From: Erysipelotrichaceae bacterium | GTDB taxonomy: Bacteria > Bacillota_I > Bacilli_A > Erysipelotrichales > Erysipelotrichaceae | Length of the DNA: 5,669 bases | Reading direction: 5' to 3' | Assembly: GCA_024681275.1 (NCBI GenBank) | Contig: JAILBD010000255.1 | Location: 1 to 5,669, forward strand | Shown: positions 1,092-2,549 of the stretch, piece after piece | Layout: every line of letters starts with the position of its first letter | How positions within the stretch are numbered: the first letter of the stretch is position 1 | Notes under the pieces: generated by a model | The model's input: the letters and a program-made list of their open reading frames with translations, nothing else | The model's database searches: none | What the model was told of the DNA's origin: nothing | Made by a program: the position numbers and the translations under genes

Positions 1092-2549
1092 TTAACCGAG
1101 TTCTTCGCCGTTGGAGGCGATGACCTTTTTATACCATTCGAAAGAATCTTTCCTCATTCTTGCGGCACTTCCCTTACCATGGTCGTCAAGGTCTACATAG
1201 ACGTAGCCGTAGCGCTTGGACATCTGAGCGCTCGATGAGGAAACGATGTCGATCGGTCCCCAGCTCAGATAGGAGAAGACCTCGGCGCCGTCTTCGATTG
1301 CGTGTCTGACCTGCGCAATGTGCTTTCGCAGATAATCGATGCGGTAATCGTCGTGGATGGAACCATCCGCTTCAACTTTATCATAAGCGCCGAAGCCGTT
1401 TTCGGCAATCATCAGAGGAACGTGGTACCTGTCAGAGAGCTGGCACAGCGCATTGTAAAGACCCAGCGGGTCGGCGCGCCACTCCCAGGGCGTGGGTTCG
1501 AGGTTGGGGTTCTGCGAGGCGACGTAGGGCTTGATGCCATCCTTCTTCGCATCGACGATTGACGTCGAGTAGAAGGACATCGCCAGGTAATCCATCGTGT
1601 TTTCCTTCAGGAGCTTTTCGTCCTCTTCGGAAATATCGACGAGGATGTTGTTGTTTTTGAAGTATCTGAGCATGTAGACCGGATACTCGCCCCTGAGCTG
1701 TACATCGGTGAAGAAGTACTGCTGGATGCGGTTCTTGTTCATGCAGGCGATGACGTCTTCCGGCTTGCAGGAAGCGGGATACATCGTGCCGTCCGCGATC
1801 ATCGTTCCCAGTATCGCTTCCGGGTCGATCGACGGTGCAAGCCGCTTGACTTTTGCACAGGCCACAAACTGGTTGTGGACAGCCCGGTACATTGTCTCTT
1901 CCATCTTCTCCTTCTCTACCTGGTCATCGTAGATACCCAGCGAACCGAACATGACAGTCGGCAAGAGGTTGACCTGGTTGCAGACGATCCAGTACTTTAC
2001 CTTTCCCTTGTATCTTTCAAGAAGAAGGGTCGCGTATCTGACGAAGAAGTCGATGACTTTCCGGTTGGCGAAACCGCCGTACTTTGTGACCAGTCCCAGC
2101 GGGATGTCATAGTGGCACATCGTGATGACCGGCTCCATGCCGTCTTTGATGATCTCATCGATCAGTTCATCATAGAATTTCAGACCGGCCTCATTTGGCA
2201 TCTCTTCGTCGCCTTCCGGGAAGATCCTCGACCAGGAGATTGAGGTCCTGAATGCCTTGAAGCCCATCTCCTTCATGTAGGCCAGATCTTCCTTAAAAGT
2301 GTGATAGAAATCGATGCCATATCTTTTCGGATAATAGCCTTCCTTATCGTTCAGGGCGAAGCGGATTCCTTCAAGCGTGTCTCCACCCTCCTTTTCGATG
2401 TGGGCCTGATCCATGTGATCGTCGTATCTGTGAATGTCGGAGGTCGATGGGCCTCTGCCATCAAGATCCCAGGCACCTTCGGCCTGACAGGCCGCAATCG
2501 CGCCGCCCCAGAGAAAGTTCTCCGGGAAACCTTCTTTCAGCTGTTTCAT
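1092..2549 (-). CDS. GH1 6-phospho-beta-glycosidase homologue with Gln at the acid/base position
   Basis: This 485-residue protein has the full length of a GH1 (beta/alpha)8-barrel. Family landmarks run in order: the FPENFLWGG start, Gln22 in the CQAEGA segment, SISWSRIFPEG (about 103-113), His146 in CHYD, the nucleophile Glu383 in IAENG, Trp430, and an SSSS-x4-KRYG segment (437-448). In that segment Ser439, Lys445 and Tyr447 match the 6-phosphate-binding signature of 6-phospho-beta-glucosidases, pointing to PTS-delivered cytoplasmic substrates. The odd point is the strand-4 motif: YWIVCNQVN where the family has W-x-x-x-NE. The acid/base Glu is replaced by Gln192 (CAG at 1974-1976), while Asn191 is kept. 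Plant myrosinases carry the same change. The protein may be a phospho-glycosidase for activated or thio-linked aglycones, a weakened enzyme or a non-catalytic binder. The start is the ATG at 2549, six bases after AAAGGAG; 12 codons upstream could be read in frame but begin without such a site. It lies 59 bases after the first GH1 gene. Confidence 0.92.
   Translation of the reverse strand: MKQLKEGFPENFLWGGAIAACQAEGAWDLDGRGPSTSDIHRYDDHMDQAHIEKEGGDTLEGIRFALNDKEGYYPKRYGIDFYHTFKEDLAYMKEMGFKAFRTSISWSRIFPEGDEEMPNEAGLKFYDELIDEIIKDGMEPVITMCHYDIPLGLVTKYGGFANRKVIDFFVRYATLLLERYKGKVKYWIVCNQVNLLPTVMFGSLGIYDDQVEKEKMEETMYRAVHNQFVACAKVKRLAPSIDPEAILGTMIADGTMYPASCKPEDVIACMNKNRIQQYFFTDVQLRGEYPVYMLRYFKNNNILVDISEEDEKLLKENTMDYLAMSFYSTSIVDAKKDGIKPYVASQNPNLEPTPWEWRADPLGLYNALCQLSDRYHVPLMIAENGFGAYDKVEADGSIHDDYRIDYLRKHIAQVRHAIEDGAEVFSYLSWGPIDIVSSSSAQMSKRYGYVYVDLDDHGKGSAARMRKDSFEWYKKVIASNGEELG

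Follow-up and report, generated by a model that had tools for sequence, protein, structure and literature searches.

A bacterial branch of GH1 proteins with glutamine at the acid/base position

Introduction

GH1 is a textbook two-Glu family. The rice genes Os4bglu14 and Os9bglu33, which encode GH1 proteins, are plant genes and have no PTS. In both of these proteins the acid/base Glu is reported to be replaced by Gln (PMC1781453), and Gln at this site, together with a Glu nucleophile, is also reported for the classical (QE-type) plant myrosinases (PMC6691170). Among GH1 6-phospho-beta-glucosidases, LpPgb1 is reported to bind phosphate through Ser432, Lys438, and Tyr440 and to contact the aglycone sugar through Asn183 and Arg267 (PMC3605045). 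The 6-phospho-beta-thioglucosidase GH1 proteins of L. plantarum and CfPbgS of C. farciminis are PTS-linked and cut 6-phosphoglycosides, including S-linked ones. A Gln in place of the acid/base Glu is also found in Gan1D-E170Q (PDB 4ze5 and 4zfm), which the PDB title calls "a catalytic mutant" and which was solved with cellobiose-6-phosphate.

Here we describe a bacterial GH1 gene, and the clade to which it belongs, with Gln where the 6-phospho-beta-glucosidases E. coli BglA, SmBgl, LpPgb1, and B. licheniformis 6wgd have the acid/base Glu. Compared with these four, the Gln clade is a separate branch with extra acids, and it is altered at aglycone positions 195, 277, and 328 and at neighbors of the catalytic residues. 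The substitution is the one in the rice proteins. Compared by description, the clade is like the QE-type myrosinases in combining Gln with a Glu nucleophile in GH1, but unlike them it is bacterial, with a 6-phosphate site, a PTS operon, and an acidic aglycone side. It shares PTS linkage with the L. plantarum and C. farciminis proteins, although in the former a single glycon subsite is reported, of which the acid/base Glu is part (PMC3605045). The substitution and its column are identical to those of Gan1D-E170Q, which was made in the laboratory, whereas in the Gln clade the change is natural and fixed. No description of a natural bacterial GH1 Gln clade was found among the open-licence PMC titles and abstracts listed by the searches; other literature may differ. 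For a natural clade with an invariant Gln, the name 6-phospho-beta-glucosidase may mislead on substrates. The identity of the substrate would reveal glycosides used by the gut and soil bacteria that carry the clade, and would show how a retaining glycosidase manages without its usual acid.

Results and Discussion

The Gln-type GH1 protein of the window

The window is the whole stretch of DNA that was analyzed, 5,669 nucleotides long; its features are given in Table 1.

Table 1 Features of the window and the basis for their assignment
Feature	Positions	Strand	Basis or remark
GH1 gene encoding P0001 (485 aa), acid/base position Gln192	1092..2549	minus	ATG at 2549, stop ends at 1092
Codon 192, CAG = Gln, acid/base position (YWIVCNQVN)	1974..1976	minus	translation and alignment
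Codon of nucleophile Glu383 (IAENGFG)	1401..1403	minus	translation and homologue alignment
Codon of Asp209, an acid typical of the clade, between strand beta4 and helix alpha4	1923..1925	minus	alignment
Neighboring GH1 gene encoding P0002 (483 aa), acid/base position Glu	2609..4060	minus	Gan1D is the closest solved relative
PTS IIA, lactose/cellobiose family	4138..4479	minus	Pfam/NCBIfam
PTS IIC, lactose/cellobiose family, gene cut by window end	4525..5667	minus	Pfam/NCBIfam
144-aa protein without family match, recurrent downstream of Gln-type GH1 genes	618..1052	minus	Pfam/NCBIfam
HAD-type phosphatase, gene cut by window end	1..621	minus	homologue L002:7936-8766 matches PF08282

P0001 matches the GH1 profile and has the required fold, without the acid/base Glu in the NE motif (end of beta4) that is expected of GH1 O-glycosidases. 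With QE-type myrosinases it has in common the pair of Gln and a Glu nucleophile. The phosphate-site Ser, Lys, and Tyr of 6-phospho-beta-glucosidases correspond to Ser439, Lys445, and Tyr447 here and are kept in the clade. P0001 scored below every curated NCBIfam cut-off for 6-phospho-beta-glucosidases (518.1, 509.6, 503.8, and 501.1 bits versus 623, 624, 639, and 686). Its predicted structure had a pLDDT of 40.7 from the single sequence and 96.3 with an alignment. No solved member of the Gln clade was found; two further Gln proteins compared with the PDB match the same 7 Glu-type sequences at the cut-off used.

Conservation of Gln192 and the active site

Translation of the minus strand from 2549 to 1095 places Gln at residue 192, in YWIVCNQVN, with CAG at 1976 to 1974. 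In P0002 (4060 to 2612 translated) the motif is YWTTINEQ, and alignment puts its Glu in the column of Gln192. A preliminary description of this DNA had read codon 192 and both motifs in this way, and translation and alignment bear it out. Alignments also place the acid/base Glu of 6wgd, BglA, and SmBgl in this column, and the Gln of Gan1D-E170Q aligns with the Glu of P0002, hence with Gln192.

Homologues were taken from protein searches with three queries: the window protein, a paralogue with KWIVVNQ from locus L002, and a Listeria grayi homologue. Each search listed the best 120 of the 7,977 to 7,997 proteins that passed its cut-off. All 360 have Gln at the acid/base column, so that with P0001 the count is 361/361. 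The nucleophile Glu383 (ENG motif) and His146 are likewise present in 361/361, Gln22 and Asn191 each in 360 (the exceptions being a gap and a Lys, respectively), Trp430, S437, K445, and Y447 each in 357 (4 gaps), and S439 in 353 (4 Thr, 4 gaps). The residues that the preliminary description listed as kept (Glu383, Gln22, His146, Asn191, Trp430, and Ser439/Lys445/Tyr447) are thus present and are conserved in the homologues.

In the four gene pairs compared, dN was 0.08 to 0.16; dS was 1.7 to 2.5, near saturation, in three pairs and undefined in the fourth. The low dN and the intact remainder of the site agree with the earlier statement that the protein is "not simply decayed," and they rule out gene decay. 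A read error at base 1976 is ruled out as well, because all the listed homologues have Gln and both Gln codons are present in the clade: of 55 genes taken from loci, some of them found with a Gln motif, 34 have CAG and 21 have CAA.

Origin and distribution of the Gln clade

The joint alignment held 507 proteins, 416 with Gln and 91 with Glu; six of the latter, nearer to the neighbor type, were set aside, leaving 85. Loci supplied 55 of the 416 Gln proteins; some of these were retrieved with a Gln motif, and for them Gln follows from the way they were chosen. Both trees were built without the motif columns. A single E/Q change was found on a 97-row thinned tree (SH-aLRT 98) and on a 51-row tree (UFBoot 99, SH-aLRT 95, 200/200 bootstrap trees). 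As judged from these trees, the Gln proteins are one separate branch, in which the substitution apparently occurred once and was then fixed. We infer that the direction was Glu to Gln because the remainder of the family has Glu. Members of the Gln set are as little as 39% identical, so the Gln state is probably old.

No reversion to Glu inside the Gln clade was found among the loci fetched by a Glu-motif search and by a protein search of four genomes. With Glu in place of Gln, the motif matched 12 times, in 11 of the 244 genomes described below, and the 10 matches that were fetched are all Glu-clade proteins carrying Glu. The four-genome search gave 150 matches, and the fetched loci contain 33 distinct GH1 genes. 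The 18 nearest the Gln clade (13 new to the reference set and 5 already in it) all have Gln, and the 15 nearest the Glu clade all have Glu.

The Gln motif was present in 50 of 244 sampled genomes of the Erysipelotrichaceae-type family of genome G002 and in 12 of 392 of its phylum, samples that have several genomes in common. Each count falls by one, to 49 and 11, when the match in G057, which reads a stop codon and is due to chance, is removed. A reversed control pattern had no match. One genome, G137, had six matches. In a plasmid collection, 957 records had a match; of the four that were read, L138 (L. monocytogenes) has Gln and L139 to L141 have Glu. Source names of Gln proteins, among the matches listed, include Faecalicoccus, Holdemanella, Clostridium, Enterococcus, Listeria, Brevibacillus, Actinomyces, and Acerihabitans. 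The Gln group is widespread among bacteria, mainly Bacillota.

Gene neighborhoods

Eighty loci were laid out, and a Gln-type ORF was picked in 77 (all except L152, L183, and L185). The neighborhood was defined as six ORFs on either side of this ORF; contig ends cut some loci, and some loci overlap (L012 and L210 belong to the same genome). Each neighbor was given a family by BLAST against earlier clusters, whose representatives were checked by Pfam or NCBIfam. Genes for a lactose/cellobiose-type PTS were common near the Gln gene: IIB at 57/77 loci, IIC at 61/77, and IIA at 54/77, with all three at 49/77 and any of them at 64/77, including Listeria and Enterococcus. The preliminary description had raised the point whether homologues keep Gln in a like operon, and these counts, with Gln in 360/360 listed homologues, indicate that they do. 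At 13 of the 77 loci, the listed neighbors include no lac-type PTS gene (e.g., L182, L184, L186, and L189). A regulator of PRD type was present at 54/77 loci. A Glu-type GH1 gene was among the listed neighbors at 21/77 loci, and none was listed at the other 56.

Proposed activity

Because everything but the canonical acid/base is kept, and because the loci mostly have no Glu-type GH1 neighbor, we infer that the enzyme is active. The best explanation, for which we find belief and doubt about equally balanced, is that P0001 is an active retaining 6-phospho-beta-glycosidase whose substrates have aglycones able to leave unprotonated. The lactose/cellobiose-family PTS would import the glycoside and 6-phosphorylate its sugar, the conserved Ser/Lys/Tyr site would hold the phosphate of the 6-phosphoglycoside, Glu383 would attack the anomeric carbon, and the aglycone would depart with no proton donated by residue 192. 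Gln192 would probably form a hydrogen bond first to the atom that leaves and afterwards to the incoming water. Candidate substrates are activated aryl or heteroaryl O-, N-, or S-glycosides. Since Gan1D-E170Q was solved with cellobiose-6-phosphate as a catalytic mutant, Gln would be expected to serve ordinary O-glycosides poorly, and the change from an acid to a neutral residue suggests activity on unusual compounds.

The preliminary description had offered a specialist for good leaving groups among its readings, and that part is the explanation preferred here. Its thioglycosidase or glucosinolate role is unsupported as stated, since Glu enzymes cut 6-phospho-thioglucosides and the aglycone side is acidic. 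Counted against the preferred explanation are the loci without a PTS (13/77), the NCBIfam scores below cut-off, and the clustering of clade-specific positions in the top 15 only and not in the top 40 (see below). Still more tentatively, we suggest that a large GH1 subfamily, mainly of Bacillota, lost the canonical acid/base once, early, and consumes PTS-imported glycosides unrecognised as bacterial nutrients (S- or N-linked glucosides or glucosides with a cationic aglycone), whose cleavage would either dispense with the usual acid catalyst or use one that has moved to the aglycone site.

The aglycone side and a possible relocated acid

Among the clade-specific changes are those at 188 to 190, 195, 328, 382, and 428, positions adjacent to catalytic residues. 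The number of clade-specific positions within 5 residues of a catalytic residue was 7 in the top 15 (2.1 expected; P = 0.0017), 7 in the top 25 (3.6 expected; P = 0.05), and 8 in the top 40 (5.8 expected; P = 0.21). By hand mapping, LpPgb1 Asn183 corresponds to residue 195, which is Leu or Met in the Gln clade; Arg267 to residue 277, mostly Gln or Glu; and SmBgl Met314 to residue 328, mostly Tyr or Phe. Because these residues are replaced, the aglycone is probably no plain sugar.

The extra acids at positions 199, 209, 253, and 277 are a point against the preferred explanation, because they may mean that protonation was moved rather than dispensed with. According to this main rival, which we consider unlikely, an ordinary O-glycosidic oxygen would receive its proton from Asp209, Glu199, Asp253, or Glu277, and the protein would be an O-phosphoglycosidase with a moved catalyst. 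Two or more acids are present at these positions in 408/416 Gln proteins, whereas the 85 Glu proteins have at most one (none in 49 and one in 36). The weighted acid shares in Gln and Glu proteins are 0.84 and 0.01 at 199, 0.98 and 0.36 at 209, 0.69 and 0.00 at 253, and 0.47 and 0.00 at 277; net charge over the whole protein is unchanged (-19.3 and -19.5). However, the four positions were picked after inspection, and the Gln proteins gained acids elsewhere too (e.g., at 45, 68, and 218). Position 209 is without an acid in 11/416 Gln proteins, and position 199 is Val in the subclade of the window protein itself. No gained acid is invariant across the 416 Gln proteins, whereas Gln192 never varies; one universal relocated acid is therefore unlikely.

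Other explanations

A PTS-linked 6-phospho-thioglucosidase for glucosinolates or other S-glucosides is, in our judgment, improbable. It would account for the residue shared with the classical QE myrosinases (PMC6691170), and PTS plus GH1 routes for sinigrin are reported, as in CfPttS/CfPbgS (PMC8660893). L. monocytogenes, which has a Gln member, is tabulated as a sinigrin degrader (PMC8401010), but it has further Glu-type GH1 genes (e.g., L139). Sulfatase genes lie near 5/77 loci, although the acidic aglycone side fits the anionic, sulfated aglycone of a glucosinolate poorly. Moreover, 6-phospho-thioglucosidase activity is reported for 8/11 L. plantarum GH1 proteins (PMC10360150), and the 6-phospho-beta-glucosidases of this species are reported to share their glycon subsite, acid/base Glu included (PMC3605045). 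The EE-type plant myrosinases also have Glu (PMC6691170). With Glu in both of these groups, Gln is not needed for a thioglucosidase role.

The general chemistry of acid/base mutants lends support to a phosphorylase or transglycosidase, in which, without a carboxylate base, an anionic or thiol acceptor and not water would resolve the glycosyl-enzyme. HAD-type phosphatase genes are near 18/77 loci. We rate this possibility as slight, since a good leaving group would still be required for the first step and no acceptor or dedicated partner gene was found.

A binding or regulatory pseudoenzyme, such as a sensor of a phosphorylated glycoside, is consistent with the solution of Gan1D-E170Q with cellobiose-6-phosphate bound (PDB titles), but this alternative of the preliminary description is weakened to the point of being very improbable by the conservation of the nucleophile and glycon site in Gln proteins, the PRD-type regulator at 54/77 loci, and the lack of a Glu-type GH1 neighbor at 56/77.

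Other features of the loci

The sulfatase genes are at L174:8933-10420, L177, L181:5704-7173, L151:8772-10238, and L179:3806-5296. In L174, L177, and L181 they are on the same strand and directly downstream of the Gln-type gene, and the four that were checked match PF00884. Some Gln-type sublineages may use sulfated substrates. In L151 the Gln-type GH1 gene adjoining the sulfatase gene is a shortened ORF of 343 aa (L151:7237-8265).

A Glu-type GH1 gene with the YWTTINEQ motif directly precedes the Gln gene in the window (2609-4060), in L012 (4483-5931), and in L222. A protein family with members some 140 aa long (window 618-1052; L002:7508-7936; and other loci) is encoded near Gln-type GH1 genes in 12/77 loci; the window member has no match in Pfam or NCBIfam. 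Two or more different Gln-type GH1 genes, often in tandem, were seen in L002, L144, L150, L157, L161, L168, L170, L193, L194, L195, L202, and L210, and in L002 a gene for a SnoaL-like protein (PF12680; L002:5569-5982) lies between two of them.

The L. monocytogenes genes are arranged IIB-IIC-IIA-GH1(Gln)-PRD regulator, flanked by a succinate-semialdehyde dehydrogenase gene and an ABC-F gene. We take this operon to be lmo0914 to lmo0918. Soil extract is reported to raise lmo0917 transcripts (PMC3179493).
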